Both the position numbers and the translations under genes were made by a program. From Rhodopseudomonas sp. AAP120 (GTDB lineage Bacteria > Pseudomonadota > Alphaproteobacteria > Rhizobiales > Xanthobacteraceae): a stretch of DNA of 64,000 nt. Under the pieces are notes generated by a model, which saw nothing but the letters and a program-made list of their open reading frames with translations, had not been told where the DNA came from and did no database searches. Location of the stretch: contig NZ_LJIC01000021.1 in NCBI RefSeq assembly GCF_001295845.1, positions 1-64,000 on the forward strand, written 5' to 3'. Positions 14,988 through 58,099 of this stretch are shown here, piece after piece; position 1 is the first letter of the stretch, and every line of letters starts with the position of its first letter.

Positions 14988-15029
14988 CCCGCTCGATCCT
15001 CCTGCCGGAGGATGGTGCGGGTTTTTTGT
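14988..15029 (+). terminator. Intrinsic terminator after amiR, overlapping attL
   Basis: A two-part stem followed directly by T6. The outer stem is CCCGC (14988-14992) with GCGGG (15017-15021), the inner stem ATCCTCC (14996-15002) with GGAGGAT (15007-15013), and the loop is TGCC. The T-tract at 15022-15027 is also the start of the 9-bp ICE boundary repeat, so the element entered exactly at the terminator's U-tract. A smaller hairpin, CGTCTG-AAA-CAGACG, lies at 14894-14908. Confidence 0.8.
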
Positions 15030-15203: not shown

Positions 15204-16403
15204 ATGGCAAAGATCAAGCTCACCAAGACCGCCGTAGAGACGGCGCAGCCCCAAGCCAAAGCCATCGAACTGCGGGATACCGTGGTGCCTGGCTTCCTGT
15301 GCAAGATTACCCCAGCAGGTCGCCGGGTGTTCATGCTCCAGTACCGGACGAACGCCGGGGAGCGCCGCAAGCCCGCCCTGGGCCTGTTCGGGGAACTGAC
15401 CGTTGAACAGGCTCGCGTCATGGCGCAAGACTGGCTTGCCGAGGTTCGCCGGGGCGGCGACCCTGGCGGTGCCAAGGCCGAGGCGCGCAAGGCACCCACG
15501 ATGGCCGAGTTGTGCAAGAAGTTCATGGAGGACTACTCCAGGAAGCGCAACAAGCCCAGCACGCAGGACGGCTATCAAGGCGTCATCGACCGTAACATCA
15601 TCCCGCTGCTGGGCCGCAAGAAGGTTCAGGACGTGAAGCGGCCCGACATTGCCGGGCTGATGGAGAAGTTGGCCTACAAGCCGACCGAGGCGAACAAGAC
15701 CTTCGGCGTGCTGCGCAAGATGTTCAACCTGGCCGAAGTGTGGGGCTTCCGCCCGGACGGCACGAATCCGTGCCGCCACGTTCCGATGTACCCGCCTGGC
15801 AAGGAAACTCGGCTCATCGTGGACGACGAGCTGGTGCGCGTCTTCCGCCAGTTGGAGAAGCTGGAGGCCGAAGGGCTGGAGAACTACGTCATCCCGCTGG
15901 CGATCCGCCTGCAATTCGAGTTCGCCGGCCGCCGCTCCGAAATCTGCCCGCTTGAATGGAATTGGCTGGACTTCGAGAACCAGCGCGTGGTGTGGCCGGA
16001 CAGCAAGACCGGCGGCATGTCCAAGCCCATGAGCGCGGAAGCCTACCGGCTGCTTTCGACGGCTCCGCGCCGGGAAGGTTGCCCCTACGTCTTGCCATCG
16101 CCCAACGATCCGACCAAACACCTGACGCATGGCGAGCACTATGGCGGCTGGTGCCGGGTGCTCAAAGCGGCTGGTGTCCCGCACGTCGGCACGCACGGCA
16201 TCCGCCACCGTTCGACGACCGACATTGCCAACTCGGGCGTGCCGACCAAAGTGGGCATGAAGCTGACGGGCCACAAGACCGTGGCGATGTTCATGCACTA
16301 CGTCCACACCGAGGACAAGCCGGTGCGTGATGCCGCCGAGCTGGCGACCAGCCGGCGTCAGGCCATCATTGGTGCGCGACCGCTTGCGGAGGCGGCAGCA
16401 TGA
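15204..16403 (+). CDS. int: Tyrosine-type integrase of Tn4371-family ICE
   Basis: A 399-residue tyrosine recombinase. The N-terminal part (about 1-90) is an arm-binding DUF4102-like domain. The catalytic domain shows the first Arg in Ala-Gly-Arg-Arg-Ser-Glu, the His-x-x-Arg box in His-Gly-Ile-Arg-His, and the final His and Tyr in Gly-His-Lys-Thr-Val with the Tyr of His-Tyr-Val-His. ATG 15204 has an AAGGAG box 8 bp upstream and is preferred over the upstream in-frame start at 15168. It catalyses excision and insertion at the T-rich att core and is coupled by ATGA to the next gene. Confidence 0.92.
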   Translation: MAKIKLTKTAVETAQPQAKAIELRDTVVPGFLCKITPAGRRVFMLQYRTNAGERRKPALGLFGELTVEQARVMAQDWLAEVRRGGDPGGAKAEARKAPTMAELCKKFMEDYSRKRNKPSTQDGYQGVIDRNIIPLLGRKKVQDVKRPDIAGLMEKLAYKPTEANKTFGVLRKMFNLAEVWGFRPDGTNPCRHVPMYPPGKETRLIVDDELVRVFRQLEKLEAEGLENYVIPLAIRLQFEFAGRRSEICPLEWNWLDFENQRVVWPDSKTGGMSKPMSAEAYRLLSTAPRREGCPYVLPSPNDPTKHLTHGEHYGGWCRVLKAAGVPHVGTHGIRHRSTTDIANSGVPTKVGMKLTGHKTVAMFMHYVHTEDKPVRDAAELATSRRQAIIGARPLAEAAA

Positions 16404-17464: not shown

Positions 17465-17836
17465 TTCTCTCCCCAGCAGTCGGGCGTCCCGGCGTTCCGC
17501 CGTCGCGCTGTCGTGCTGCGCATCGAGCCTCGCTGCGCGAGTCTCGCCCCATGCGGGCTTCCATCGTTCCCTCGCTTTGCTCGGCTGACGCCTCCGGCCC
17601 GGCTCGCTGATCCGGGCCTGCGCGCTCCGCTTGCCCCAAAAACCGAGGGTGTGCAGCGGGCGGGTGTGGGCGGTCTTGCTGTTCCCTTCACCGTATCACG
17701 GCGTTCTCGCCGTCAAGGGCTGCACGCGCTGGTGCGCGCTTGCGTCCTGCCGGCCGGCTGCGCCCCCTGACTGCTTGCGCTGCGCCGTGCTGGCGACGGT
17801 TCCGGGCAATTCCGCCCGAGCAACCGGAGCACGATC
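17465..17836. repeat. Non-coding region with two intergenic repeat families
   Basis: The first part, 17500-17635, recurs at about 19323-19460, sharing the stretch CGGGCTTCCATCGTTCCCTC and a following GCTCGGCTGACGCC. The second part, 17671-17836, is nearly identical to 18460-18625 and forms the leader of radC. No coding frame with family resemblance was found here. Confidence 0.7.
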
Positions 17837-18346
17837 ATGTCGCAACTGTCCATTTCCTCGCTCGATGCCTCGCTGATGGTGCGCGACGCGAAGGGCCGTT
17901 ACCAGCCGGCGACGGCCGACCAGATTCTGGAGGCCGCGCGCCAGGCCATCGAGCACAAGATGCAGCGCGGTGCATCGTTCAGTTCGCCGGCGGCGGTCAA
18001 GGAGTACCTGCGCACCAAGCTGGCTGGCTTCGAGCATGAGGTGTTCGCCGTGCTGTTCCTCGATGCGCGGCATTGCTTGATCGACTATGCCGAGATGTTC
18101 CGAGGCACCATCGACGGCGCATCGGTGTATCCGCGCGAAGTGGTCAAGGAGGCGCTGCGACTCAACGCGGCAGCGGTCATCGTTTCGCACAACCATCCGA
18201 GCGGCAATCCCGAGCCGAGTGCGGCCGATCGGGCACTGACCCAGCGGCTCAAGGAGGCGCTGGCATTGGTGGACGTTCGCACGCTGGATCACATCGTCGT
18301 CGCGGGTAGCAAAACCACGTCCTTCGCCGAACGCGGCTTGATTTGA
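17837..18346 (+). CDS. radC: RadC-like JAB-domain protein
   Basis: A 169-residue protein with a C-terminal JAMM metalloprotease fold: a Glu in the Glu-His-Glu-Val-Phe segment, the His-Asn-His-Pro-Ser-Gly box and Pro-Ser-Ala-Ala-Asp. It lacks the N-terminal helix-hairpin-helix of chromosomal RadC, as is usual for the short versions in Tn4371-type ICEs. The function is unknown; a role in plasmid or ICE DNA metabolism or anti-restriction is often proposed. It is followed by a strong terminator, so it is transcribed alone. Confidence 0.88.
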   Translation: MSQLSISSLDASLMVRDAKGRYQPATADQILEAARQAIEHKMQRGASFSSPAAVKEYLRTKLAGFEHEVFAVLFLDARHCLIDYAEMFRGTIDGASVYPREVVKEALRLNAAAVIVSHNHPSGNPEPSAADRALTQRLKEALALVDVRTLDHIVVAGSKTTSFAERGLI

Positions 18347-18371: not shown

Positions 18372-18459
18372 GCTGCGTCCGGTGGCGCAACTCCGGCCCT
18401 CGCGGGCCTGCGCGTGCTGCGCACTTGCCGAAAGGCCGGGTGCGTGGAGTGTGAGGGGG

Positions 18460-18625
18460 CGGTCTTGCTGTGTCCCTTCACCGTATCACGGCGTTCTCGC
18501 CGTCAAGGGCTGCGCGCGCTGGTGCGCGCTTGCGTCCTGGCGGCCGGCTGCGCCCCCTGACTGCTGCGCTGCGCCGTGACTTCGACGGTTCCGGGCAATT
18601 CCGCCCTTGCAACCGGAGAACCGTC
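18460..18625. repeat. Duplicated leader, copy 2 (copy 1 at 17671-17836)
   Basis: The 166 bp preceding this gene and the 166 bp preceding radC are nearly identical, ending in the same GCAACCGGAG ribosome-binding context just before each ATG. The duplication includes CCGTATCACGGCG and CTCGCCGTCAAGG, which can form small hairpins. It puts radC and the next gene under the same 5' region, and so probably the same control. Confidence 0.75.
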
Positions 18626-19018: not shown

Positions 19019-19794
19019 TCGCGCCGCGCTACCTTCGGTGCGTCGTTCCTGCGGGGACGGCGCACTTTTTTTTCTGCTGCGCCCGGTGCAGGTGACTCCG
19101 CGCCTGCGGCGCTGCGCGCTTCGCTTGCCTCCGGGGGAAAGCCCTGCGGGCTATCCCCGCCGCGCGATGCTTGGCGCCCCTAAAGACCGCCGAACCGGCT
19201 GCGCCGGCTCGGCCGGAAATCCGCAGCCGCAGCAGAACCCGCTTCCCGATGCGTGGGACGTGTTGCGCCTGGTGCGCATCGAACCTTGAAGGCTGGGCGT
19301 CCCCGGCCAAGAAACATGGCCGGTCGCGCTGTCGTGCTGCGCATCGAACCCCCTGCGGGGTTTCGCCCCTGACGGGCTTCCATCGTTCCCTCGCTCCGCT
19401 CGGCTGACGCCTCCGGCCCGGATTCCTAGATCCGGGCCTGCGCGCTTCGCTTGCCGTGCGGTCTGCACATCAAGACGGCCGTTGCCATGTCCAGCCGTCT
19501 TCCCTCGCTCATCACCTCTCCGCGACTGTAGCCCGCGGCCGTGTGCCGTCAAGGCGCGCAGGGCCGTGTCCTCGGCTGCGCCTGCGGGCCGCACCAACCC
19601 TGCGCTTGTTTCCTTGACGGCCCCCGTCCGCGCGCTCCTGACCGTCGCGGGCGATGAACTCAGGAAAGACGGTGGCAACGAGGCCAACCGGGTTCTTCGT
19701 GCCGACCGCACCGAACAGCCGAAAGGCTGGGCTTCCGAATCTAGGAATCCGGTGTGCGGTGAACAGCAAACCTCTTTTTGTCAGGAGAAAGATC
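19019..19794. repeat. 776-bp non-coding region with repeats, upstream of DUF932 gene
   Basis: Segment 19106-19199 matches 26218-26311 (shared cores GCTGCGCGCTTCGCTTGCCT and GCCCTGCGGGCTATCCCCGC). Segment 19323-19460 matches 17500-17635. The remainder is GC-rich with no credible gene. The DUF932 gene frame is open from 19654, but its SD and family start are at 19795. The repeats appear to mark module joints within the ICE. Confidence 0.65.
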
Positions 19795-20684: not shown

Positions 20685-22733
20685 ATGAACGCCGTAGCCC
20701 AAACCGAAATCCGCGCCATCGAAACCGCCGCACCGCTGGAAATGGCCGACCCGTCCAAGAATCTGATCTTGGTTGCCCTCTCGCAGTTGCTGCCGCGCCG
20801 CTCCAAGCGCAACGCCCGCAAGATGCCGCGCCTATCCATCCCCGAACTGGCCGCGAGCATCGCCCGCATCGGCCTGCTGCAAAACCTGATCGTGATCGCA
20901 TCCGCCGATGGCGAGCATTACGAGGTGGTGGCCGGTGATCGCCGCTTGACCGCCTTGAAGCTGCTGGCGAAGAAACACCGCATCCCCGCCGACTACGAGG
21001 TGCCGTGCCTGCTGGTGGCCGATGGCAGCGCCCGCACCGTCAGCCTCGCGGAGAACGTGCAGCGCGAGAACATGCACCCCGCCGACCAGTTCGCGGCCTT
21101 CGCCGCGCTGGTCAAGGAAGGCCGGCCCATCGAAGACATTGCCGCCGACTTCGGCGTGTCCCCGCTGGTGGTGCAGCGGCGCTTGAAGCTGGCGAACGTC
21201 TCGCCGCGCCTGATGGCCGACTACCGGGCCGGTGGCGTGACGCTGGAACAGTTGATGGCCTTGACCATCACCGACGACCACGCCGCGCAGGAAGCCGCGT
21301 TCTATGGTGCGCCGGAATGGCAGCGCAGCCCGTCCGCGCTGCGCGCACGCCTGACCGAGCGCGAAATCGACGCCACGCACGCGCTGGTGCGCTTCGTCGG
21401 GCTGGACGCCTACCGGCAGGCAGGCGGCGGCATCCGCCGCGACCTGTTCGCCGAAGGCGATGCCGGAACCTACCTCACCGACGCCGCAGTGCTGGAAACG
21501 CTGGTGCGCGAGAAGCTGGCAACGCTGGCCGAGGACGTGCGCGCCGAGGGCTGGGCATGGGTGGAGGCCGTGCCGCATCTGGCCTATGAGGAGCGGCAGG
21601 CGTTCCAGAACGCCCCGCGCCATCGCAGCAAGCCGACCACGCGCGAAGCCCGCCGCATCGCCTCGCTGGAAAGCCGCCTCGAAAAGATCGACGCCGAACT
21701 GGAGGATGCCTGCGACGCCGAGGACGAGGCCAAGGCCGAGAAGCTGGAACAGCGGCGCGATCAGGTGGTCGCGGAACTGCAAGACGCGGAGGACGCCTTA
21801 CAAGGCTATGCGCCCGAGGTGCGCGAAGTGTCCGGCGCCATCGTCACCATCGACCGCAACGGCGAGGCCGTCATCCATCGCGGCCTGCTGCGCGAGGCCG
21901 AGGCCAAGGCGCTGCGCACGCTGGAAAAGCTGCGGCGCGGTTTCGGCAGCACCGATGGCGAAGCCGCCAACGACGAGCACGAAGACGACGACGCGCCCAA
22001 GGCCGCGAGCCTGTCCGACCGGCTGGCGCAGCGGTTGAGCGCCCATCACACGGCGGCGCTGCAAATCGAAGTCGCACGGCATCCGCACGTCGCGCTGGCC
22101 GCGCTGGTGCATGGCATGGCGCAGACCGTCTTGCAGCCCGACGCCTACGGCGATGGCCTGCCGTTGGGCGTCCGCCTCACGACGCAAGACCGGCTGGAAG
22201 GCATGGCCCCGGACTGGCCGGAATCGCCCGCCGCCGTGGCGCTGCGCAAACTGCAACAGGTAGCCGGTGAAGCCTTGCCGGAGGACAGCGCCGAACTGTT
22301 CGCCGCGCTGCTGGCGAAGCCGCAAGACGAACTGGTGCGACTGCTGGCGGTATGCGTGGCCGCGACGGTGGACGTGGTGACGCCCCGCGCCACGACGCAT
22401 CCGCGCGGCGAGGAACTGGCGCAGGCCGTGGGCCTCGACATGGCCGCATGGTGGAAGCCGACCGCAGAAGGCTACTTCAAGCACGTTTCCAAGGCCGCGA
22501 TTCTGGATGCCGTGGGCGAGTACGCGCCCGAGCAGGTCAACCGGCTGGCGAAGCTCAAGAAGGCCGACATTGCCAGCGAAGCCGAGCGGCTGGCCGAGGG
22601 TAGCGGCTGGATGCCTGCCGTGTTCCAGACCGGGCATCACACGGAGCCGGAAGGCATACCGGATGCGGCGAGCGATGACGATGCGCCGGAAGAGGCCGCC
22701 GAAGAGGCGGAGGCTCACGTGCTGGCCGCGTGA
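20685..22733 (+). CDS. parB: ParB-like partition/nuclease-domain protein
   Basis: A 682-residue ParB/Srx-fold protein. The N-terminal third has the Gly-Asp-Arg-Arg-Leu box near residue 85 and the Glu-Asn-Val-Gln-Arg-Glu-Asn box near 121, followed by a helix-turn-helix. A charged Glu/Lys/Asp-rich coiled coil lies at about 325-400, and the C-terminal half is family-specific. It is much longer than chromosomal ParB, as usual for the Tn4371-type protein. ATG 20685 is preferred over the long upstream extension because a GGAG box precedes it. It may act with ParA at 29815 in stability of the excised circle. Confidence 0.85.
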   Translation: MNAVAQTEIRAIETAAPLEMADPSKNLILVALSQLLPRRSKRNARKMPRLSIPELAASIARIGLLQNLIVIASADGEHYEVVAGDRRLTALKLLAKKHRIPADYEVPCLLVADGSARTVSLAENVQRENMHPADQFAAFAALVKEGRPIEDIAADFGVSPLVVQRRLKLANVSPRLMADYRAGGVTLEQLMALTITDDHAAQEAAFYGAPEWQRSPSALRARLTEREIDATHALVRFVGLDAYRQAGGGIRRDLFAEGDAGTYLTDAAVLETLVREKLATLAEDVRAEGWAWVEAVPHLAYEERQAFQNAPRHRSKPTTREARRIASLESRLEKIDAELEDACDAEDEAKAEKLEQRRDQVVAELQDAEDALQGYAPEVREVSGAIVTIDRNGEAVIHRGLLREAEAKALRTLEKLRRGFGSTDGEAANDEHEDDDAPKAASLSDRLAQRLSAHHTAALQIEVARHPHVALAALVHGMAQTVLQPDAYGDGLPLGVRLTTQDRLEGMAPDWPESPAAVALRKLQQVAGEALPEDSAELFAALLAKPQDELVRLLAVCVAATVDVVTPRATTHPRGEELAQAVGLDMAAWWKPTAEGYFKHVSKAAILDAVGEYAPEQVNRLAKLKKADIASEAERLAEGSGWMPAVFQTGHHTEPEGIPDAASDDDAPEEAAEEAEAHVLAA

Positions 22734-22746
22734 TTCCGCGACATGG

Positions 22747-22775
22747 CCCCGGCGCAGCGCGCGCCGGGGGTTTTT
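22747..22775 (+). terminator. Intrinsic terminator after parB
   Basis: The stem CCCCGGCGC (22747-22755) pairs with GCGCCGGGG (22761-22769), followed by G and T5. It ends the DUF932-parB unit just before cargo block 1. Confidence 0.85.
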
Positions 22776-22875
22776 CCCGAACCGGGCGCGGCGAGTCTGC
22801 CGCGCCCGGTTTCAACGTCCACAACAAAATCACTTCGTCGCCGCCTTCGCCCAGGCTGGCGATCACATTCATAGT

Positions 22876-22939
22876 GCGTGTATTTTGCACGCTTTACATC
22901 AAGCGGCAAAGCGTCGATAATGAGTGCATCATACACTCA
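22876..22939 (+). promoter_or_regulatory. Promoter with two MarR-type operators for the FMN reductase gene
   Basis: A sigma-70-type promoter is visible: TTTACA (22893-22898), 17 bp, GATAAT (22916-22921). Operator 1, GTGTATTTTGCAC (22878-22890), abuts the -35 box; operator 2, GTGCATCATACAC (22924-22936), sits directly after the -10 box, where it would block initiation. Both fit GTGYA-N3-TRCAC, the same motif found twice at the marR promoter near 37504 and 37552, with centres 46 and 48 bp apart respectively. Confidence 0.75.
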
Positions 22940-22952
22940 ATTTAGGTGCGCA

Positions 22953-23573
22953 ATGAGCCAAAAGAAGACGGTGCTCCTGGTCATGGGGAGTACGCGGGCG
23001 GGTAGGAATTGCCCGAAGATTACGGCATGGGTTGAGTCCATCGGCCGAGCAAGCACCGCCTATGAATACGAGATTGTCGATCTGGCGAAGTGGTCGTTGC
23101 CGATGGACGACGAACCGGCGATTCCCGCAATAGGCCCCTATATGCAACCGCATACTCGTGCCTGGAGCGAGAAGGTCAAAGGCGCGAGTGCCGTGGTCTT
23201 CATCACGCCCCAATTCAATTGGGGCTACCCGGCAGTCCTCAAGAACGCCATCGACCATCTTTACAGCGAGTGGCACGACAAGCCACTGATGATCGTGACC
23301 TACGGTGGTCATGGCGGTGGTCGATGCGCCAAGCAATTGCGGCAAGTTGTAGGTCGGCTTGGGGTGCGTATCGTGCCGACCTCTCCCGAACTGCGATTGT
23401 CGGATGCGGTGATTCGGGAGGGAGCCATACTAAATCCGGATCACGATTTTCGTGTGTTTGCGCCGAAGGTTCGACAAGCACTTGCGGAGTTGGCAGCCCA
23501 ACTCGACGGCAGCGAAAGCGTTGTGTCGCGGCTGCGCCGCCGTTGGAAGGCAACGCTTTCAGTTATCTCTTGA
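22953..23573 (+). CDS. NADPH-dependent FMN reductase-family flavoprotein
   Basis: A 206-residue flavodoxin-fold protein. The phosphate-binding loop Gly-Ser-Thr-Arg-Ala-Gly-Arg is near residue 14 and the family signature Gln-Phe-Asn-Trp-Gly-Tyr-Pro-Ala-Val-Leu-Lys-Asn-Ala-Ile-Asp near residue 90. Members reduce FMN or quinones with NAD(P)H in the cytoplasm. The start at ATG 22953 gives the normal family N-terminus; upstream codons overlap the promoter and operators. Two operators identical in form to those of the MarR at 37534 control it. It may supply reduced flavin or detoxify the inducer of that regulon. Confidence 0.85.
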   Translation: MSQKKTVLLVMGSTRAGRNCPKITAWVESIGRASTAYEYEIVDLAKWSLPMDDEPAIPAIGPYMQPHTRAWSEKVKGASAVVFITPQFNWGYPAVLKNAIDHLYSEWHDKPLMIVTYGGHGGGRCAKQLRQVVGRLGVRIVPTSPELRLSDAVIREGAILNPDHDFRVFAPKVRQALAELAAQLDGSESVVSRLRRRWKATLSVIS

Positions 23574-23625
23574 GTTGTTCTCTCGGGATTGGTTTAGCCT
23601 GTCCTTAGTTCATTCCCTCGCGCTT

Positions 23626-23678
23626 GCCGCTGACGCGCGCAAGGTTTCGATGGCGCAACCGCCACGGTGGCGGGGCTT
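23626..23678. repeat. Imperfect direct repeat flanking the Tet(X)-like gene, left copy
   Basis: About 53 bp with the shared core AGGTTTCGATGGCGC matches 25084-25136 with scattered differences. The two copies bracket the Tet(X)-like gene, so the gene may have been inserted or looped in between them. The surrounding 23574-23729 holds no gene. Confidence 0.5.
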
Positions 23679-23729
23679 GCTCAACAGCGGAATCGGTGCG
23701 ATACTTGATCTTTGAAAGACCGCGAAAAA

Positions 23730-23763
23730 CGGTTGTCTGTATGCCACTGGCGCTAGACAACCG
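23730..23763. promoter_or_regulatory. Inverted repeat upstream of the Tet(X)-like gene
   Basis: CGGTTGTCT-N16-AGACAACCG is a perfect 9-bp inverted repeat, centred about 133 bp before the start of the flavin monooxygenase. It differs from the GTGYA-N3-TRCAC motif, so another regulator, or an RNA hairpin, is implied. No candidate regulator gene is adjacent. Confidence 0.45.
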
Positions 23764-23879
23764 AATACACGCCACCAAGCAGCTCTAGCGAGGTCGGCCA
23801 GCGTTTCCCCGACATCTGTCGGCCTTTCTGCGAACTGGCGCGTATTGACGCGAACGTTCGCAGCCATTGGAACGCTGCC

Positions 23880-25037
23880 ATGAACACACATCTCGATTTC
23901 TCTTTCCCTTCCGCACATCCCCGCATCGCCATCGTCGGCGCCGGCCTTGGCGGCTTGACGCTCGCACGTGTCCTTCACGTCAACGGCATTCCCGCGACGA
24001 TCTACGAAGCCGAAGTCTCGCCCGATGCGCGGGCACAAGGCGGCTTGCTGGACATCCACGAATACAACGGCCAACTCGGGCTGAAGGCCGCGTGCCTCTA
24101 CGACGAGTTTCTAGCCCTCGCGCTGCCGGGTGAAGATGCCAAGCGCGTGGTCGATAAACATGGCAATGTCCTGCTCGACAAGCCCGGCTCGGGCAGCACG
24201 GCCAAGCCCGAGGTCGATCGCGGCGCGCTGCGCCGGCTGCTTATCGGATCTCTGCCTGCCGACACCATCCAATGGGGCCGCAAGCTCGTGAAGGTGAACC
24301 GCCTTGCCGACGGGCAACACCTACTGGCTTTCGCCGAAGGTTCGACGATCACGGCGGATTTGCTGGTCGGCGCCGATGGCGCCTGGTCGAAGGTTCGTCC
24401 ACTGCTGTCGGCCGCAAAGCCGGCGTACATCGGCACGACCTTCATTGAAACCAATCTCTTTGATGGCGACACGCGATACAAGACCAGCGCCGAGATGATC
24501 GGCGGCGGCACGCTGATGGCGATCGAACCGGGCCAAGGTATCTTGGCTCACCGTTACGCGAGCGGCGCGCTACGCACCTATGTCGCATTGAACAAGCCGG
24601 AAGCATGGATCGGCGCCATCGACTTCAGCCAGCCGGTGGTCGCACTGCGTCGCCTTGCGGGCGAATTCGAGGGTTGGGTGCCACCGCTTCTGGCCTTGGT
24701 CACTGATAGCGATACCCCGCCCATCGTGCGGCCTATCCTTGCCTTGCCGATCAACCATCGGTGGACGCGCATTCCAGGCGTCACGCTCGTGGGCGATGCG
24801 GCCCACCTGATGTCGCCGTTCGCCGGTGAAGGCGCCAATCTCGCCATTCTGGATGGCGCCGAGTTGGGCTTAGCGCTGCGCGATCATCCCGGCGACATCG
24901 AGGCGGCACTTGTGGCGTATGAACAGGCGCTTTTTCCGCGCAGTGCCGCCGTCGCCGACCAGACGGCCAAGAACCATCGGCGTTTCTTCGGCGACGACGC
25001 GCCCCGGAGCGTGGCCGAACTGTTCTCCGCGCATTAG
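23880..25037 (+). CDS. Tet(X)-like FAD-dependent monooxygenase
   Basis: A 385-residue class A flavin monooxygenase, about the size of Tet(X). The FAD dinucleotide motif Gly-Ala-Gly-Leu-Gly-Gly is near residue 20; Gly-Gly-Leu-Leu-Asp-Ile-His near 56 corresponds to the Tet(X) GGTLDLH-type stretch; the second FAD motif is [14 protein letters not shown] near 303. Tet(X) enzymes hydroxylate and inactivate tetracyclines, but relatives act on other polyketides or aromatics, so resistance is not proven. It follows the FMN reductase gene on ICE cargo block 1. No signal peptide; cytosolic. Confidence 0.82.
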
Positions 25038-25672: not shown

Positions 25673-25987
25673 ATGGCCAACATCGGCACCTTCACCGCAG
25701 ACAAAGACGGCTTCACCGGCACGCTTCGCACCCTGACGCTCAACGTCAAGGTCAAGGTGGTTCCCAACGACAAGGGCAGCAGCGAGAACGCTCCTGACTT
25801 CCGTCTTCAGGCGGCTGGCCACGACATCGGCGCGGCCTGGAAGAAGACCAGCGAGGCCGGGCGGGATTACCTGTCCGCGACCCTCGACGATCCTTCGTTC
25901 CCGGCTCCGGTCTATGCCCGCCTGATCGAAGGCGAGAACGGCACGCACGACCTGATCTGGTCGCGCAGCAAGCCCCAGGCGGCGTGA
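25673..25987 (+). CDS. DUF736 domain protein
   Basis: A 104-residue protein fully matching the DUF736 family: Asn-Ile-Gly-Thr-Phe-Thr at the start, Leu-Asn-Val-Lys-Val in the middle, Asp-Phe-Arg and a Gly-Ala-Ala-Trp-Lys-Lys-Thr segment, then Tyr-Leu-Ser-Ala-Thr-Leu-Asp-Asp-Pro. The family is typical of rhizobial and proteobacterial conjugative elements; the function is unknown. ATG 25673 follows AAAGGAG. A CCCCGCC-ACAT-GGCGGGG hairpin follows near 26000 but lacks a T-tract. Confidence 0.92.
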
Positions 25988-26338
25988 CCGCCGCCCGCAG
26001 CACCCCGCCACATGGCGGGGCGCTGTGCTGTCTCGTCCCCAACTCGGCAGCGGCAGGCAGCGGCCCATAGCGGGCTGCATTTCCATGCGGGGAAGCTGTG
26101 TCAGTGCATGCTGCCAGGGCATGGCGTGTCGGCGCGAAGCGCCGCCGGGCTTTCGGGCTGCGCCCCGTGCCGTCTTTGTCGTCACGGCCATTCGGCTTCA
26201 ATCCCGCCTTCGCGCCGGCGGCGCTGCGCGCTTCGCTTGCCTCTAGGGGAAAGCCCTGCGGGCTATCCCCGCCGCGCGATGCTTGGCACCCCTTGAACAC
26301 CGCCGAACCGGGCTTCGCCGGATCGGGCTAGCCTGCAC
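25988..26338. repeat. Intergenic region with repeat shared with 19106-19199
   Basis: The segment 26218-26311 is a near copy of 19106-19199, sharing GCTGCGCGCTTCGCTTGCCT and the downstream GCGATGCTTGGC. The rest of the 351 bp is GC-rich without a credible gene. Confidence 0.65.
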
Positions 26339-28703: not shown

Positions 28704-29561
28704 ATGTCCAGCACCGCGCTGCCGTCCCGGCAGCGGCCGTTGCAGGAGCGCGAACAGCTCGACCTGTTCCGCGCCTTGCCCGGCGACATGGCGCCGCGCG
28801 ACAGCCAAGACCTGATGGCCTATCCGTTCTTCTCGCTCGGCAAGTCCAAGCGGGTCAAGCCCATCGACTTCCGCGCGGGCAACATCACGATCCGCGTGGA
28901 AGGCACGCAGGAGCACGGCATCGCCACGATTTGGGATGCGGACGTGCTGATATGGGCGGCCTCGCAGATCGTGGAGGCGAAGGACGCGGGTTTGCGCCCG
29001 TCGCGGCTGATGCGTGCCACGCCTTACGAGATCCTGCGCTTCATCGGGCGCGGCAAGTCGCTGCGCGACTACCAGCGCCTCAAAGCCGCACTCGACCGGC
29101 TGCAATCGACCACGGTTGCCACGTCCATCCGCGAGACGACCGGGCGGCGCCTGCACCGCTTCTCGTGGATCAACGAATGGAAGGAACTGGCCGATGCCAG
29201 CGGCACGCCGCTGGGCATCGAACTGATCCTGCCGGACTGGTTCTATGCCGGCGTGCTCGACGCCGCCCTGGTGCTGACCATCGACCCGGCGTATTTCCGG
29301 CTGACCGGCGGCATCGAGCGGTGGCTGTATCGGCTGGTGCGCAAGCACGGCGGCAAGCAAGAGCACGGCTGGCAGTTCGACTTCCGCTACCTGCACCAGA
29401 AGTCGGGCAGCACCGCAAAGCCCTACGACTTCGCCTGCGACCTGCGCGCGCTGGTTGCGCGGCAGTCGCTGCCCGGCTACGTCCTGGCCATCGAACGGAT
29501 GCCGGACAACGGCATGGAGCTGCTGACCTTCCGGCCCGTGCCGCAGACGGCACGGGGATAA
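28704..29561 (+). CDS. repA: RepA-type replication initiator
   Basis: A 285-residue plasmid-type initiator of the RPA/RepA family (Pfam Replic_Initia). Typical features: Gln-Leu-Asp-Leu-Phe near residue 18, Met-Ala-Tyr-Pro-Phe-Phe-Ser-Leu-Gly-Lys near 38, a winged-helix core with Arg-Ala-Thr-Pro-Tyr-Glu-Ile-Leu and a C-terminal Leu-Thr-Phe-Arg-Pro. ATG 28704 is preferred. Three iterons follow its stop within 25-90 bp. It probably replicates the excised circular ICE, consistent with the adjacent parA. Confidence 0.87.
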   Translation: MSSTALPSRQRPLQEREQLDLFRALPGDMAPRDSQDLMAYPFFSLGKSKRVKPIDFRAGNITIRVEGTQEHGIATIWDADVLIWAASQIVEAKDAGLRPSRLMRATPYEILRFIGRGKSLRDYQRLKAALDRLQSTTVATSIRETTGRRLHRFSWINEWKELADASGTPLGIELILPDWFYAGVLDAALVLTIDPAYFRLTGGIERWLYRLVRKHGGKQEHGWQFDFRYLHQKSGSTAKPYDFACDLRALVARQSLPGYVLAIERMPDNGMELLTFRPVPQTARG

Positions 29562-29814: not shown

Positions 29815-30453
29815 ATGATCGTCGCTTTGCTCAACCAGAAAGGCGGCGTGGGCAAGACCACGCTCGCCACGCACATCGCCGGCGAGCTGGCGATGCGCGG
29901 CCAGCACGTCGTGCTGCTGGACGCCGACCCGCAGGGTTCATCGCTGGACTGGACGCAGCGCAGAAGCCAGCAAGGCTTGCCACGGCTGTTCAGCGCCGTG
30001 GGCCTCGCACGCGAAACGCTGCATCAGGAAGCGCCAGAACTCGCCAGGCGGGCCGATCACGTCGTCATCGACGGCCCGCCGCGCATCGCCGCCTTGGCGC
30101 GCTCCGCGCTGTTGGCGGCCGAGCGCGTGCTGATCCCCGTGCAACCCAGCCCCTACGACCTGTGGGCCAGCGCCGAGATGGTGGCGCTGATCCGCGAGGC
30201 GCAGGTGTTCCGGCCTGCGCTGCGCGCGGCCTTCGTCATCAATCGGCGCGTCAGCACCACCGTGATCGGGCGCGAAGCGCGCCAGGCGCTCGCCGACCAG
30301 CCGCTTCCTGCGCTGCGCGCGGAAGTGCATCAACGCATCGTGTTCGCCGACAGCGTGGCCGCTGGCCGGCTTGCACGCGAGACGGCACCGGACAGCGCCG
30401 CCGCCCGCGAAATCACCGCGCTGGTGGACGAACTGCTGCGGTGGCCGACATGA
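29815..30453 (+). CDS. parA: ParA-family partition ATPase
   Basis: A 212-residue Walker-type ATPase. The deviant Walker A motif Lys-Gly-Gly-Val-Gly-Lys-Thr-Thr is near residue 9, the Leu-Asp-Ala-Asp-Pro-Gln-Gly box near 37 and a Val-Val-Ile-Asp-Gly-Pro-Pro Walker B-like motif near 81. It lacks an N-terminal HTH, so it is the short ParF/VirC1-like class. ATG 29815 has GGAGG 8 bp upstream; the frame is open earlier. It overlaps the RHH gene by ATGA and likely segregates the circular ICE. Confidence 0.9.
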   Translation: MIVALLNQKGGVGKTTLATHIAGELAMRGQHVVLLDADPQGSSLDWTQRRSQQGLPRLFSAVGLARETLHQEAPELARRADHVVIDGPPRIAALARSALLAAERVLIPVQPSPYDLWASAEMVALIREAQVFRPALRAAFVINRRVSTTVIGREARQALADQPLPALRAEVHQRIVFADSVAAGRLARETAPDSAAAREITALVDELLRWPT

Positions 30454-31845: not shown

Positions 31846-32285
31846 TGGCCGCCGATTCGCTGCACGTTGCCGTGCATCTCATCGTGCCATCTGGCGTGCC
31901 GATTCAGTGGCTTTCCGCATGTCGTCGCGCGTGCAGTGCGAGGGCATCCGCACCGCACTTCGCGCTGCCTTCCCATGTGCAGGCGTCTTGCCTCGAACGC
32001 TGCCGGCCTATGGCCGTCGCCACGTTCGCCGGCGCGCTGGCTGCTCGCGCAGCAGCGCAGCCGGGCCGCCGCTGCCCGGAGCGCCAGCGAGGGGCAAAGG
32101 CGGAAGGCAAGACAAAAGGACGCGGCACCGGGCCGCGTCGAAAGCCAGTCTGCACATGGGGGTGGCGCGGCACGCAACGGCTTCGCCGCCGTGCCGCTTA
32201 TGGCGCGAGGCCCGCGCCAATGCAGGCATGTCCGCGTGCTTCGCACGACAGGACACGCCAGAGCTTGCAGGAAGCGCAGCCATGA
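31842..32285 (+). CDS. Putative 147-residue basic protein between traF and the relaxase
   Basis: A frame of 147 residues that overlaps traF (ATGA at 31842) and the relaxase (ATGA at 32282), so it tiles the interval exactly as the real coupled genes do. The second half is strongly basic (many Arg, Lys). No domain was recognised and a chance open frame in high-GC DNA remains possible. If real it might be a relaxosome accessory protein; that is speculation. Confidence 0.45.
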   Translation: MMAADSLHVAVHLIVPSGVPIQWLSACRRACSARASAPHFALPSHVQASCLERCRPMAVATFAGALAARAAAQPGRRCPERQRGAKAEGKTKGRGTGPRRKPVCTWGWRGTQRLRRRAAYGARPAPMQACPRASHDRTRQSLQEAQP

Positions 32286-34279
32286 GCGACCGCCGCGACA
32301 ACGATTTCCGCGTTCGCCCCAGCGCCCCGAAGAACCGGGGCAAGGGCCAGGGGCAGAGCTTTGTTTCCAAGGTGCTCAAGCAGGCGGGCAAGGCCAGCAG
32401 CGGCAAGTTCACAGTGCGCCGTCCTGGCGCGGCGGGCGGCACCAGCAATGGAACCGGCCAGCGGCCCGGCTCGCGCCTCGGGCGCGGCCATACGGCGGCG
32501 CGCTTCGCAGGTGCGAAGCTGACGCCCATGTCGCGGCGCGTGACCATCAAGACGCTGCTGGTGAACCACCAGCGGGCCAGCCCGCAGTCGCTCGGCAAGC
32601 ACTTGCGCTACATCGAGCGCGACGGCGTGGGCCGTGATGGCGAGCCGGGCCAAGCCTACGGGCCGCAAACCGACGCCGCCGACCTCGACGCCTTCAAGGA
32701 ACGCTGCGCCGACGACCGGCACCATTTCCGCTTCATCCTCTCGCCCGAGGATGGCGCGGAACTGGAAGACCTGCGCACCTACACGCGGCACCTCATGGGG
32801 CGCATGGAGGCCGACCTGGGCACGGGCCTCGACTGGGTTGCGGTCAACCACTGGAACACCGACAACCCGCACACGCACATCGTCGTGCGCGGGCGAGACG
32901 ACACCGGCAAAGACCTCATCATCGCGGGCGACTACATCGCCGACGGCTTCCGCCATCGCGCCGCCGAACTGGCGACCGAATGGCTGGGGCCGCGCACCGA
33001 GCTGGAGATCCAGCAGACCTTGGGACGCGAGGTGGAACAGGAGCGGTGGACGAGCCTGGATCGCACCTTGAAGCGCGAGGCCGGCGACGATGGCCTGGTG
33101 CATGTCGAACGGCTCAACGAACCCCGCTTGCAGCGCCAACGCCTGCTGCTGATCGGGCGCCTGCAACGCTTGCAGCGCCTGGGCCTGGCCGACGAGACGC
33201 AACCCGGCACCTGGGCCGTCCATGCCGATGCGGAAAAGACCTTGCGCGCCCTGGGCGAGCGCGGCGACATCATCCGCACCATGCAGCGGGCCATGCGCGG
33301 CGAGCCGCGCGAGCTGGCGGTGTTCGAGACGGGGGACGATGGCCGAACCATCCTCGGCCGCGTGGCCGCGAAGGGGCTGGCCGACGAGCTGCGCGACCGG
33401 GGCTATCTGGTCATCGACGGCGTGGACGGCAAGGCCCACTACGTCGCGCTCAACGCCCGCGATGAACTGGCGAACTATCCGGCCGGGGCCGTGGTGGAGG
33501 TGAAGGGATCGGCCGACGTGCGCGCGGCCGACAGGAACATCGCCGCGCTGGCGAGCGATGGCCTGTACCGCACCGATCATCACCTGGCCGTGGCGCAGGG
33601 CCAGGCCGTACCGGGCCGCGACCCGCAGGAGGCCGTGGCGGCCCACGTCCGCAGGCTGGAAGCCCTGCGCCGGGCCGGCATCGTGGAGCGCGTGGCCGAA
33701 GGGCTATGGAAGGTGCCGGGCGACCTGCCCGAGCAGGGCCGCCGCTACGACGCGCAGCGCCTGGGCGGCGTGGCCGTGGAGCTGAAATCGCACCTGCCCA
33801 TCGAGCGGCAGGCCCGCGTGATCGGGGCCACCTGGCTCGACCAGCAGTTGATCGGCGGCGGCTCGGGCCTGGGCGACCTGGGCTTTGGCGGCGAGGCCAA
33901 GCAGGCGATGCAGCAGCGCGCCGACTTCCTGGCCGAACAGGGACTGGCCGAGCGACGCGGACAGCGCGTGATCCTGGCGCGCAACCTGCTGGGCACGCTG
34001 CGCAACCGGGAGCTGGCGCAGGCCGCGAAGGACATAGCCGCCGACACCGGCCTGGAGCATCGCCCGGTGGCCGACGGGCAGCGCGTGGCCGGCATCTACC
34101 GGCGTAGCGTCATGCTCGCCAGCGGTCGCTACGCGATGCTGGACGACGGCAAGGGGTTCAGCCTGGTTCCGTGGAAGCCAATGATCGAGCAGAAGCTGGG
34201 CAAACGGGTAGCAGCGACAGTACGCAGTGCCAGTGCGTCTTGGGATTTCGGACGCAGCCGTGGCCCTTCCATCGGTTGA
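32282..34279 (+). CDS. Relaxase with DUF3363 domain (VirD2/TraI-like)
   Basis: A 665-residue conjugative relaxase. The N-terminal part has the histidine triad in Asn-His-Trp-Asn-Thr-Asp-Asn-Pro-His-Thr-His (three-His metal site), preceded by a lysine- and arginine-rich region and followed by the DUF3363 region across the C-terminal half. It would nick oriT and pilot the strand with the TraG coupling protein. ATG 32282 overlaps the upstream frame by 4 bp; the longer upstream extension is not credible. An oriT was not identified. Confidence 0.9.
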   Translation: MSDRRDNDFRVRPSAPKNRGKGQGQSFVSKVLKQAGKASSGKFTVRRPGAAGGTSNGTGQRPGSRLGRGHTAARFAGAKLTPMSRRVTIKTLLVNHQRASPQSLGKHLRYIERDGVGRDGEPGQAYGPQTDAADLDAFKERCADDRHHFRFILSPEDGAELEDLRTYTRHLMGRMEADLGTGLDWVAVNHWNTDNPHTHIVVRGRDDTGKDLIIAGDYIADGFRHRAAELATEWLGPRTELEIQQTLGREVEQERWTSLDRTLKREAGDDGLVHVERLNEPRLQRQRLLLIGRLQRLQRLGLADETQPGTWAVHADAEKTLRALGERGDIIRTMQRAMRGEPRELAVFETGDDGRTILGRVAAKGLADELRDRGYLVIDGVDGKAHYVALNARDELANYPAGAVVEVKGSADVRAADRNIAALASDGLYRTDHHLAVAQGQAVPGRDPQEAVAAHVRRLEALRRAGIVERVAEGLWKVPGDLPEQGRRYDAQRLGGVAVELKSHLPIERQARVIGATWLDQQLIGGGSGLGDLGFGGEAKQAMQQRADFLAEQGLAERRGQRVILARNLLGTLRNRELAQAAKDIAADTGLEHRPVADGQRVAGIYRRSVMLASGRYAMLDDGKGFSLVPWKPMIEQKLGKRVAATVRSASASWDFGRSRGPSIG

Positions 34280-34343: not shown

Positions 34344-35474
34344 TCAGCTTGATGTCAGCGTGAAAGCCTCATGCACGGCGGACTGGACGGAGCCACCAGT
34401 TACGGGGCCACCTCCTGCCACGTAGATCGTGTCTCCAATGGTTGCGGCCGCGACTGCATGACGCGGAGTTGGCATTGGCGCATGATGCTGCCAGCTATCA
34501 GTGGCCGGGTCGTAGCTCTCCATCTGCCCATAGACCTTCGCTTGCGTGATCCGGCCATTAGCGGAAATACCGCTTTCTCCACCCATCGAAAAAATGCGAT
34601 CGCGATAGACCACCAAGCCATGACCCGAGCGTGCCGTCGGCATCGGGGCGCGTGGCTCCCACGTATCCCTATCCGGGAAGTACACATGGTGTAGGTCGGT
34701 GTTGTACTCGAACGTATTGAAGCGGCCGCCGATGACGTGGATGACGCCGTTACGAGCGACGCAGCCGACATGATCGCGGGCACCGGGCAGTGCCTTGCGC
34801 AATGTCCATCGGTCAGCGTCGGGATCGTAGGCTTCGTGCCAGCCGACACTGGCGCGTTCCTCCTTGGGAGCGGAAGCGCCGCCGATGAGGTGCACTCGCC
34901 CTTCGAGCACGACGGCTGCCGCCGCGCCGCGCGGCCGCGGCAAGGGCGCGATCGGCTCCCAGCGATCGGCGTCCACCACGTAGGCGTAGGCGTTGTTGAC
35001 CGGGCTTCTGTTCTGCTCCACGAAGCCGCCGAGCGCATATACGCGGCCTGCGAGAGCGGCGACGGCAACGTGGTTGGCGCCGCGCGGAAGCGGTGCCGCG
35101 ACGTACCAGCGATCCTCGGAAGGCTCATAAACATGGTGATAGGTTCGATCGACGCGGCCCTCCCCATATCCACCGATGACGTGCAGGCGACCCGCCCACG
35201 CAGCTCCCCAGGCCATCTCGCTGCGCGGCAGCGGCAATAGCGCTCTCGAAGTCCATCGACCCAGCGACCCAAGAGGCGCAGGACTCGCCGTGAGACGCTC
35301 GGCCTGCTCGCCGGGCATCAGGTGATCCATCATCGCGCCGCCTTGATGCAGGCGAGCAAAGGGCGCTAACGATGGCGTAGCAGGCTTAAGAACCGGTGCT
35401 GCTTTGGCAAAGCCAACTGCCGATGCGCCGAGCATCATGAGTGTCGAGCGCCGCGTCAGGGAAAATCTGGACAA
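34344..35474 (-). CDS. Tat-exported kelch-repeat protein
   Basis: A 376-residue protein. A twin-arginine signal (Thr-Arg-Arg-Ser-Thr-Leu-Met-Met-Leu-Gly, residues 7-16) suggests folded export. The mature part contains about five kelch repeats with the double-Gly pattern (Ile-Gly-Gly, Leu-Gly-Gly, Met-Gly-Gly) and spaced Tyr-Trp elements, forming a six-bladed propeller like N-acetylneuraminate epimerase relatives. The start is TTG at 35474 with AAAGGAG 7 bp upstream; no ATG gives a complete Tat signal. It is last in the monooxygenase-DUF4405-kelch unit. The substrate or partner is unknown. Confidence 0.8.
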   Translation of the reverse strand: MSRFSLTRRSTLMMLGASAVGFAKAAPVLKPATPSLAPFARLHQGGAMMDHLMPGEQAERLTASPAPLGSLGRWTSRALLPLPRSEMAWGAAWAGRLHVIGGYGEGRVDRTYHHVYEPSEDRWYVAAPLPRGANHVAVAALAGRVYALGGFVEQNRSPVNNAYAYVVDADRWEPIAPLPRPRGAAAAVVLEGRVHLIGGASAPKEERASVGWHEAYDPDADRWTLRKALPGARDHVGCVARNGVIHVIGGRFNTFEYNTDLHHVYFPDRDTWEPRAPMPTARSGHGLVVYRDRIFSMGGESGISANGRITQAKVYGQMESYDPATDSWQHHAPMPTPRHAVAAATIGDTIYVAGGGPVTGGSVQSAVHEAFTLTSS

Positions 35475-35496: not shown

Positions 35497-35994
35497 TCAT
35501 TCCGGCAAAAATACGATCCCTAAAAGTCGATTCTCACCAACGCCAGATTGGAGGGAAATCTCCCGGATCGACTGCTGGCCGGTCGCAACGATCCCATGTG
35601 CCTTGAACCTGCCAATGAGAACATCCGGCTCCATGTGAGTTACACCAGCCAGTGACGACAGTGGAGCATCGACCAAGGCCAGTTCGATGGGTCTTTTCAT
35701 CTGTGGGCCTGTCATGCGGCCCCAAGAGAAGAGCGACGCTGCAACAACACCCGCAAAGATGATCGCAATGGCCTTGGTTCCCGCAGACTTGAAGTGATTT
35801 TTGAATGGACGGAAGTTGGCCGTGATGTGTCCGGCGGCGCCGGCCAGGAAGAACCAGGAAAACCACTGATGCACCACTACCACGAGGCCGCGATCCAGCT
35901 CGAAGAACATCAGAACGCCGGTGGCCGACATCAGCAGAAACGAGCTGATCGTCAGCGGCGTGGCCCACGATCGCACGGCAGGAAATTTAGGCAC
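35497..35994 (-). CDS. DUF4405-type membrane protein
   Basis: A 165-residue protein with about three membrane helices and conserved histidines in Val-His-Gln-Trp-Phe-Ser-Trp and Gly-His-Ile-Thr-Ala-Asn, the pattern of DUF4405/cytochrome b561-like membrane heme proteins. The C-terminal 60 residues are soluble and probably periplasmic. The start is a GTG at 35994 that overlaps the monooxygenase stop by 8 bp, so it is translated from the same mRNA. It may pass electrons or anchor the kelch protein; this is inference. Confidence 0.72.
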   Translation of the reverse strand: MPKFPAVRSWATPLTISSFLLMSATGVLMFFELDRGLVVVVHQWFSWFFLAGAAGHITANFRPFKNHFKSAGTKAIAIIFAGVVAASLFSWGRMTGPQMKRPIELALVDAPLSSLAGVTHMEPDVLIGRFKAHGIVATGQQSIREISLQSGVGENRLLGIVFLPE

Positions 35995-37492
35995 GGCTAT
36001 TCACCCCGACTTCGTTCAAATACTTTTTCAAGGCTGCTGTTTCCCCGGACGCAACGATTGCGCCGATGTAGCCATCAGGGCGAACTAGCACCCAGTCGCC
36101 AGGAGAAGGCGCGTAGGCATCGACAAAATGGCCGCCTTCGTCGATGACATCACCACTTTGGCCGAAGACGTGCACGCGCAGCCCCGGACGTGGCGACACG
36201 CTCGCGGGTGCGACGCCATAACCCAGCAATGTCCAATGCGGGCCAGCGAACAATTCAAAGAGCCGGATCGGCTGTCCTGCCGCACCGCGAACCGGGGCAT
36301 CAGGGGCACGATCCCCTGCGAGCAGGCCGTCACTGCGCTCGGGCGCTTCCAGCGCAAGAGAGGATTCCGGATACCCGATATCGAGTTGGTGCACTTCACG
36401 GCCACGGCGGTTCTCACCCCGTTTGAGGGCATCAAGTAACTTCGTTGCAAGACCGAGCATGGCGGCCGCGACGGGTCGGCGTTCTTCCTCGTAGCTATCA
36501 AGGAGCGCATCGGGAGCGCCGGTAGTGACCGCCGCCAGCTTCCATCCCAGGTTGTAGGCGTCTTGGACACTCGTATTGAGTCCCTGGCCGCCTGTCGGCG
36601 GGTGAATATGCGCGGCGTCGCCGACCAGGAACACGCGACCGTCCCTGTAGCGATCCGCCAGACGCGCATTCATGTTGTAGGCCGAAGCCCAGGAGACGGA
36701 CTTGATCTGCACATCATTGCGGCCGGTGCGCTCGGCCACCATCGCGGTCAGGCCCGCAGCGGACATATCCACATCGCCTTCGAGAGGGATAGGCGCCTGA
36801 ATCTGGAATAGCTCAGTGCCCGCAAGCGGACATAGCGATAGCTGCCGCTCCATCGAACCTTCATTGAAGCGATGCCAGGCATTGCGCTCTATGCCGGTGA
36901 GGATGACATCCGCCACGATGGCCCGGACACCCAGGGTCTTGCCCGGAAAGCCGATGCCGAGCGTGCTACGCACGAAACTACGGCCACCGTCTGCGCCGAC
37001 GAGATACCGCGCGTGGACGGTCTCCGCACCTGCTCCGGCGGCGATCCGCGCGGTCACACCGTCTTCGTCTTGATCGAATCCGACCAGTTCGCAGCCGTAT
37101 TCAACCTGCACGCCGAGTTCGGCAAGTCGCTCCCGCATGACCCCTTCGGTCAGGAATTGGGGCACCAGCAGCGGCAGGTGATAAGGCTCGGCGGGTGTGG
37201 GCTGAACATCCTCGACCACTGCGGACTCTGCATAGCTTCCGTCCTCGCGGTATTCGCGCTGGGGCGGATAGATTCCGCCGGCCGCGACAACGCGGTCGAT
37301 GATGCCCAGATCCTCGAAAATTTCCTGTGTTCGCGGTTGGATGCCCTTGCCACGTGAGCCGTTGAAGGGCTCGTTCATCTTCTCGATCAGGCGGAATGGC
37401 ACGCCGCGTCGCGCTAGCTCAATGGCAAGCGTGAGGCCGGCTGCGCCCGCTCCGCAGATCAGAACGCCAGTCGTCAGGTTGGTTGTCATCAT
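35987..37492 (-). CDS. FAD-dependent aromatic monooxygenase (PheA/TfdB/MhpA class)
   Basis: A 501-residue class A flavin monooxygenase. The FAD motif Gly-Ala-Gly-Ala-Ala-Gly-Leu is near residue 16, a Glu/Arg ribose site follows, and Gly-Asp-Ala-Ala-His-Ile-His-Pro-Pro-Thr-Gly-Gly-Gln-Gly-Leu-Asn is near 287; the C-terminal thioredoxin-like domain typical of phenol hydroxylases is present. It hydroxylates an aromatic or polyketide substrate using NAD(P)H and O2. ATG 37492 or 37489 follows TTGGAG. It diverges from marR with an operator overlapping its promoter, so it is a probable target of MarR control. Confidence 0.85.
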   Translation of the reverse strand: MMTTNLTTGVLICGAGAAGLTLAIELARRGVPFRLIEKMNEPFNGSRGKGIQPRTQEIFEDLGIIDRVVAAGGIYPPQREYREDGSYAESAVVEDVQPTPAEPYHLPLLVPQFLTEGVMRERLAELGVQVEYGCELVGFDQDEDGVTARIAAGAGAETVHARYLVGADGGRSFVRSTLGIGFPGKTLGVRAIVADVILTGIERNAWHRFNEGSMERQLSLCPLAGTELFQIQAPIPLEGDVDMSAAGLTAMVAERTGRNDVQIKSVSWASAYNMNARLADRYRDGRVFLVGDAAHIHPPTGGQGLNTSVQDAYNLGWKLAAVTTGAPDALLDSYEEERRPVAAAMLGLATKLLDALKRGENRRGREVHQLDIGYPESSLALEAPERSDGLLAGDRAPDAPVRGAAGQPIRLFELFAGPHWTLLGYGVAPASVSPRPGLRVHVFGQSGDVIDEGGHFVDAYAPSPGDWVLVRPDGYIGAIVASGETAALKKYLNEVGVNSRA

Positions 37493-37501: not shown

Positions 37502-37566
37502 GAGTGTATTATGCACGCAATGGGAGGCATTCTATGTCGTCAAAGAAAAGCGTGCAAGATGCACGC
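37502..37566. promoter_or_regulatory. Two MarR-type operators at the divergent monooxygenase/marR promoters
   Basis: GTGTATTATGCAC (37504-37516) and GTGCAAGATGCAC (37552-37564) match GTGYA-N3-TRCAC, centres 48 bp apart. The first lies 12 bp upstream of the monooxygenase ATG and 18 bp upstream of the marR ATG; the second lies within codons 7 to 11 of marR. This supports autoregulation and co-regulation of both directions. The same motif is paired at 22878 and 22924. Confidence 0.78.
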
Positions 37567-43604: not shown

Positions 43605-43613
43605 GGTGATGCC

Positions 43614-46798: not shown

Positions 46799-46809
46799 CG
46801 GGTGCGGCC

Positions 46810-48464: not shown

Positions 48465-48482
48465 TCTTCAAGGAGAACACCC

Positions 48483-50185: not shown

Positions 50186-50187
50186 CC

Positions 50188-58060: not shown

Positions 58061-58099
58061 GCCGGGACGACCCGGCGCTTGTCTGATGGGAGGACAACC

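Follow-up and report, generated by a model that had tools for sequence, protein, structure and literature searches.

A Tn4371-family ICE carries a class A FAD monooxygenase that is most likely not tetracycline-active

A complete-looking Tn4371-family ICE

The window, that is, the whole 64,000-nucleotide stretch of DNA analyzed here, harbors a Tn4371-family ICE (15022-51990) that looks complete by gene content, in agreement with the initial annotation, which had placed the gene of interest on an apparently intact ICE. The Tn4371-type scaffold spans the integrase through DUF2274 (51447-51692), the last scaffold gene. On the forward strand, it includes a tyrosine integrase (15204-16403), a ParB-like gene (20685-22733), a DUF736 gene (25676-25987), RepA (28704-29561), ParA (29815-30453), an RlxS-like relaxase with DUF3363 that scores below the cut-off of the RlxS profile (650 of 850 bits; 32282-34279), a LysR-type gene (38046-38960) upstream of traG, a TraG/VirD4-type coupling protein (39430-41433), and the trb/VirB mating-pair genes (41891-51450), namely, T2SSE ATPase, TrbC, CagE_TrbE_VirB, DUF4141, TrbL, VirB8, CagX and TrbI. 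The LysR-type gene occupies the traR position as described in the accessible part of PMC11448139.

A repeat search identified the direct repeat TTTTTTGT at both ends of the element, attL-like at 15022-15029 and attR-like at 51983-51990 (both on the forward strand). These two copies, starting at 15022 and 51983, are the only ones on either strand of the 64-kb window, with ~0.13 expected from the base composition, and the same repeat is listed, in the portion of PMC2789088 available to us, for the elements of Pseudomonas aeruginosa PA7 and Stenotrophomonas maltophilia K279a. All the features by which the element was assigned to the Tn4371 family are present (int, parB, repA, parA, relaxase, a gene at the traR position, traG, trb, and the published repeat). 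The element resembles other Tn4371-family ICEs in gene order and in TTTTTTGT, and long stretches show ~88-93% DNA identity to Pseudomonas, Hydrogenophaga and Delftia plasmid elements; it differs in carrying a monooxygenase gene in the slot between parB and DUF736, which holds other genes in the four plasmid elements examined. In one genome of the same genus, 64 bp of the left flank are found at 83% identity close to the whole right flank, and the element is absent. This arrangement would fit an empty ICE site; the genes further to the left are not shared with that genome, so the left edge of the ICE rests mainly on the repeat. Short stretches at ~17480-17840, 18400-18620, 19096-19460 and 26120-26330 recur across ICE regions and are repeated in related elements as well.

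The monooxygenase gene and its surroundings

The cargo slot, with the ParB-like gene as its left edge and the DUF736 gene as its right edge, contains an ORF (23880-25037, forward strand) that starts with ATG, has no internal stop codon, and encodes a 385 aa class A FAD monooxygenase, SmTetX/AbsH3-like according to profiles, structure matches, alignment and tree. The FAD motifs, the GGLLDIH stretch and the protein size noted initially are all there: GAGLGG (residues 20-25; 23937-23954) is the GxGxxG FAD-binding motif, GGLLDIH occupies residues 54-60 (24039-24059), the DG motif residues 166-167, and the GDAAH motif residues 305-309 (24792-24806). The protein matches the Pfam FAD_binding_3 profile over residues 16-336 with 62.5 bits (cut-off 22), so that everything used here to define a class A FAD monooxygenase (FAD_binding_3 and the GxGxxG, DG and GD motifs) was found.

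The monooxygenase is 91% identical to its counterpart in an ICE of Acidovorax soli and 90% identical to that in an ICE of Pandoraea horticolens, and in both of these sister ICEs the gene sits in the parB-DUF736 slot. The ORF is real and no chance reading frame: the protein is maintained under purifying selection because dN/dS among the three ICE copies is 0.14-0.17 (0.145, 0.172 and 0.139, estimated with our own Nei-Gojobori script). The start codon is backed by an N-terminus common to the three copies.

An FMN_red/quinone-reductase-like gene (~22953-23573, forward strand, with the start chosen by eye; 112.5 bits against the profile) adjoins the monooxygenase gene. The initial annotation was correct in pointing to an FMN reductase next door, but the gene is not a conserved partner of the monooxygenase because it is absent from both sister ICEs. 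Indeed, the entire stretch from ~22863 to 23626 or 23660, which includes this gene, has no counterpart in either of them. Among solved structures, the reductase matches YLR011w best; entries of the yieF, azoreductase and chromate-reductase types come next, and none of the gene calls of the 22 compared loci is a relative at E 1e-12. In Mesorhizobium, a gene annotated as flavin reductase lies ~3 kb from a relative of the monooxygenase, on the opposite strand and next to an LLM-class oxidoreductase.

Immediately upstream of the monooxygenase gene lies a leader (23720-23879, forward strand) that is highly conserved in both sister ICEs; by sequence comparison, its conservation among the three ICEs is about equal to that of the coding region. 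In both sister ICEs, an open frame of the leader terminates at the ATG; in the window, it continues in frame into the monooxygenase. Two candidate roles for the leader were discarded. As a decayed regulator, its best match to the neighborhood proteins had E 0.026, which we read as chance; an inverted repeat at 23730-23763, considered as an operator, is broken in the Pandoraea copy. No Rfam family matches the leader at the gathering score, and at E 0.1 the only match is RF02833 (31.5 of 52 bits), outside the leader at 22742-22816.

Relationship to Tet(X), SmTetX and AbsH3

The gene was initially annotated as Tet(X)-like. The best NCBIfam model is indeed that of Tet(X), NF033111, and assignment to the wider Tet(X) superfamily of flavin monooxygenases holds, but the score of 157.5 bits is about a fifth of the cut-off of 750 and places the protein far outside Tet(X) itself; the model of type 2 tetracycline destructases, NF033476, yields 41.7 bits (cut-off 550). 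Among solved structures, AbsH3 of the abyssomicin pathway (PDB 6n04) ranks first (252.9 bits), followed by SmTetX of Stenotrophomonas maltophilia (PDB 8aq8; 221.6 bits) and Tet(X)-type entries (157-171 bits). Identities in the alignment show the same order: 41% with AbsH3, 39% with SmTetX, and 30-32% with four Tet(X) proteins taken from plasmid records. GGLLDIH, taken initially as a mark of Tet(X), is not diagnostic because SmTetX has the counterpart GGTLDLH. A genome of the same phylum (L068, G746:C22) encodes a relative of SmTetX that is 87% identical.

Each of the 37 alignment rows other than L002 matches the ICE-borne monooxygenase by blastp. The tree was built from 35 rows, leaving out a partial sequence of 273 aa (L024), two sequences with long branches (L002 and L042), a 130 aa match (L071) and HpxO (L043). 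In this tree, the three ICE copies group together (support 100/100) within a 22-row clade (99/96) that excludes SmTetX, AbsH3 and Tet(X). A tree constrained to unite Tet(X) with the ICE genes in one clade loses 14.46 log-likelihood units. The AU test rejects this arrangement with moderate strength (p-AU 0.028), the Tet(X) branch being long. Thus, by profile, by phylogeny and, as described next, by pocket residues, the monooxygenase falls outside the Tet(X) family to which the initial annotation had assigned it.

The substrate pocket

The pocket was assigned by alignment alone; an AlphaFold model built from three sequences had a mean pLDDT of 38.7, too low for use. The comparison covered 24 positions in Tet(X2) numbering, most of them named in PMC13228020 or in the available portions of PMC10327574 and PMC10944477 and a few (47, 58, 203, 371 and 382) taken from general background.

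At 14 of the 24 positions, the aligned residues of Tet(X2) and SmTetX are different. The ICE-borne enzyme has the SmTetX letter at five of these 14 (190, 192, 236, 238 and 382), and the first four, F188, E190, Y234 and A236, are in the core pocket. The segment F188-I189-E190 (24441-24449, forward strand) aligns F188 and E190 with Tet(X2) N190 and Q192 and with SmTetX F181 and E183; the segment Y234-V235-A236 (24579-24587, forward strand) aligns Y234 and A236 with Tet(X2) G236 and S238 and with SmTetX Y224 and A226. We define Phe, Glu, Tyr and Ala at Tet(X2) positions 190, 192, 236 and 238 as an SmTetX-like pocket signature, which is introduced here and does not correspond to a published family. 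The enzyme encoded in the window carries this signature in full, and within the 22-row clade the respective residues are found in 21, 22, 22 and 19 of the 22 rows. Of the residues that, according to PMC13228020, should prevent SmTetX from binding tetracyclines (Ala226, Glu183, Cys222, Phe181 and Tyr224), four are identical in the ICE-borne enzyme (A236, E190, F188 and Y234), and the fifth is Arg.

The pocket is not simply that of SmTetX, because three of the 14 discriminating positions have the Tet(X2) letter (M213, F314 and N365 at 215, 319 and 371) and six have neither (A44, K201, T211, H224, R232 and F369 at 47, 203, 213, 226, 234 and 375). SmTetX has S201, F203, F212, Q214, C222 and W354 opposite T211, M213, L222, H224, R232 and F369 of the ICE-borne enzyme, and a gap where the latter keeps F314. 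F224 is common to Tet(X2) and SmTetX and is replaced by L222. AbsH3 shares with the ICE-borne enzyme an Arg opposite Tet(X2) H234 but differs at all four signature positions, with Tyr, Gln, Ser and Thr at 190, 192, 236 and 238, and has Arg in place of the GGLLDIH histidine; it also works in a biosynthetic pathway, as stated in the accessible part of PMC10327574.

The type 1 Tet(X) destructases are about 31% identical to the monooxygenase, have the same FAD motifs and share with it D58, H60, E111, R114, M213, P313, F314, G316 and N365, but their N190, Q192, R213, F224, N226, H234, G236, S238 and M375 are all replaced. Three of the latter correspond to Tet(X7) Q182, F214 and M365 (Tet(X2) 192, 224 and 375), which are given in the available text of PMC10944477 as substrate residues conserved across all type 1 destructases; the ICE-borne enzyme has E190, L222 and F369 at these sites. 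By analogy with the argument made for SmTetX in PMC13228020, the bulky Phe188 and Tyr234 together with the acidic Glu190 make binding of the tetracycline A-ring in the manner of Tet(X) unlikely.

According to the same portion of PMC10944477, D51 and E104 are conserved in all destructases and different in other FMOs. In our alignment, the equivalents of both residues are present in the ICE-borne enzyme (D58, within GGLLDIH, and E111), in SmTetX and in AbsH3; among the 32 rows that remain when Tet(X), L002 and L042 are set aside, the Asp is found in 31 (with one gap, in a partial row) and the Glu in all 32. Both are absent from the distant monooxygenases L042 and L002, the latter from the same genome as the window. 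Because enzymes such as SmTetX, AbsH3 and the one described here also carry both residues, the pair seems to mark a wider clade and not tetracycline activity as such. Of the 27 positions named as destructase-conserved, the ICE-borne enzyme keeps 20, D51 and E104 included, and hence lacks the full set; AbsH3 keeps 20, SmTetX 21 or 22 depending on the alignment rows, and Tet(X4) 27.

Exchange of cargo between elements and distribution of relatives

Nine of the best 40 of 638 plasmid records matching the monooxygenase were examined, as were four of the best 25 of 518 records matching the ICE backbone, which are the plasmid-borne Tn4371-type elements referred to above. The slot of these four elements contains other annotated genes; the best tblastn match to the monooxygenase in the four slots spans 30 residues (E 0.026) and is read as chance, not as a remnant. 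The dS values of RepA, ParA, ParB and the relaxase are 0.13-0.27 against the P. aeruginosa plasmid element, which lacks the monooxygenase gene, versus 0.40-0.64 against the sister ICEs; the backbone of the window ICE thus resembles that of the P. aeruginosa element more than those of the two gene-bearing ICEs. The monooxygenase itself shows dS of 0.30-0.32 against the two sister ICEs, near the values for DUF736 (0.29-0.31) and TraF (0.37-0.40); DUF2958 is distant from all compared elements (0.41-0.81). The content of the slot turns over between elements, because other genes fill it in the four plasmid elements and because backbone and cargo differ in their dS patterns. The genome of the window contains a GcrA gene (209.6 bits), and the two genomes with the sister ICEs contain none; among 14 control genomes, GcrA was detected in Caulobacter and, against expectation, in Sulfolobus. 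The assembly gave no 16S match in a search that was positive in 9 of 14 control genomes. From the GcrA result we infer an alphaproteobacterial host, and hence a spread of the ICE gene across two classes, alpha- and betaproteobacteria in the NCBI sense.

Past the relaxase, the Acidovorax soli contig (L056, L057) has no match to the window. Some gene calls in that region begin with residues that we take to resemble heavy-metal efflux and arsenic genes. At the matching cargo site of the Pandoraea horticolens ICE (14443-19063 of L058), the first residues of three gene calls presumably indicate short-chain dehydrogenases.

At E <=1e-40, the monooxygenase has matches in 16 of the 397 genomes of the order, its own included; at 1e-35, matches were found in 9 of the 398 genomes of the phylum and in 4 of the 16 genomes of the genus, one of the latter being a 130-residue piece, again counting its own genome. 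Twenty non-ICE loci have wide flanks: ten of these contain a divergent TetR gene on the 5' side, one a weak tandem TetR gene, and nine none. The TetR queries were drawn from six of the ten positive loci, which leaves four independent detections. None of the three ICE copies has a TetR gene nearby. TetR-controlled enzymes in general belong to inducible responses to small molecules. The TetR genes beside the non-ICE relatives suggest such a response by analogy, given that the ICE copies themselves have none. Our literature search found neither the gene in a Tn4371-family ICE nor a substrate for the clade, which does not imply absence from print.

Probable function and alternatives

Class A enzymes use NAD(P)H to reduce FAD, which reacts with O2 to a C4a-hydroperoxyflavin that oxygenates the substrate. 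The ICE-borne enzyme fits this mechanism by its FAD motifs and R114. Its catalysis, substrate class and benefit to the host we infer as follows: NAD(P)H would reduce the FAD bound to the monooxygenase, the reduced FAD and O2 would form the C4a-hydroperoxyflavin, and one oxygen would be transferred to a small molecule that is aromatic or resembles a polyketide. Tetracyclines are most likely not accepted by a pocket that has the Phe, Glu and Tyr of SmTetX, and mostly the Ala too. Located in the parB-DUF736 slot among the accessory cargo of a Tn4371-family ICE, the enzyme would probably help to detoxify or break down a compound from the environment. We therefore favor, as the probable explanation, a single-component class A FAD monooxygenase from a clade with SmTetX-type pockets, carried as exchangeable ICE cargo and most likely not active on tetracyclines. 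It is possible, and we propose this tentatively, that the clade, widespread, often TetR-controlled and with a near-invariant Phe-Glu-Tyr pocket, oxidizes one class of natural products or pollutants, and that Tn4371-family ICEs captured the gene, removed its regulator and carried it among alpha- and betaproteobacteria as a detoxification gene open to selection.

A true tetracycline destructase of type 1 or 2, which would make this a mobile tetracycline resistance gene, seems very unlikely. Superfamily and size are the same, M213, F314 and N365 are Tet(X) letters, and D58 and E111 match the residues described as destructase-conserved in the available part of PMC10944477; however, both destructase profiles score far below their cut-offs, the type 1 substrate residues are replaced, and the equivalents of D58 and E111 occur in SmTetX and AbsH3 too, hence are no mark of activity. 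Moreover, that part of PMC10944477 describes a first-round screen in which clades other than types 1 and 2 yielded no sequence that conferred resistance; in the second round, one functional sequence fell just outside the type 2 clade, with 55% identity. It is also unlikely that the enzyme is promiscuous and slowly oxidizes some tetracyclines or polyketides without conferring resistance. SmTetX showed neither tetracycline binding nor turnover (by absorbance and UPLC) and left the MIC in E. coli unchanged (PMC13228020, published in 2026), which contradicts the turnover in the earlier claim of oxytetracycline modification, accompanied by favorable docking, for the same enzyme (PMC10327574, published in 2023, available portion).

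We regard it as quite unlikely that the enzyme acts as AbsH3 does, in biosynthetic tailoring or as a reductase-type enzyme, or as LgnC does, in a Baeyer-Villiger reaction: no biosynthetic cluster is seen in the ICE slot, and among 14 non-ICE genome loci with wide flanks and two plasmids, the TetR gene is the only neighbor that recurs at many loci. Among solved structures AbsH3 matches best, and the predicted structure of LgnC is closest to AbsH3 in the accessible text of PMC11457151, but the residues of AbsH3 at all four signature positions are unlike those of the ICE-borne enzyme. Finally, the adjacent FMN reductase, encoded on the same strand, and the annotated flavin reductase near the Mesorhizobium relative, there on the opposite strand, might hint at one half of a two-component system. 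We find this hardly credible, given the class A motifs, the absence of the reductase from both sister ICEs and of relatives from the compared loci, the YLR011w-type affinity of the reductase, and the direct reduction of the SmTetX FAD by NADPH, followed by reoxidation in air (PMC13228020).

Sequence surveys tend to label genes of this kind tet(X)-like, and they are then counted as resistance. Our results suggest that D51 and E104, the proposed destructase marks, are shared by enzymes that fall outside the destructase clades; several pocket positions do separate the groups. On the favored reading of a monooxygenase that is most likely not tetracycline-active, the gene would be a fairly ordinary item of ICE cargo and no cause for resistance alarm. 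SmTetX, for which PMC13228020 lists the substrate as an open question, would also gain a mobile relative, one that differs from it by its separate position in the tree and its location on an ICE.

Other genes of the ICE and its flank

The ICE carries a second class A monooxygenase at another cargo site (500 aa; 35987-37489, reverse strand; PRK06184, 760 bits against 476), with a divergent MarR gene (37504-38022, forward strand) and a kelch-type gene (34344-35474, reverse strand) as its neighbors. The best solved matches of this protein are rifampin monooxygenases, although identification as one was rejected at 254 of the 800 bits of NF033145. The chromosomal stretch that flanks the ICE contains guanidine-I and guanidine-II riboswitches (55155-55262 and 58027-58075, forward strand), ~3 kb apart, along with a gene that matches annotated urea carboxylases of Rhizobium plasmids.
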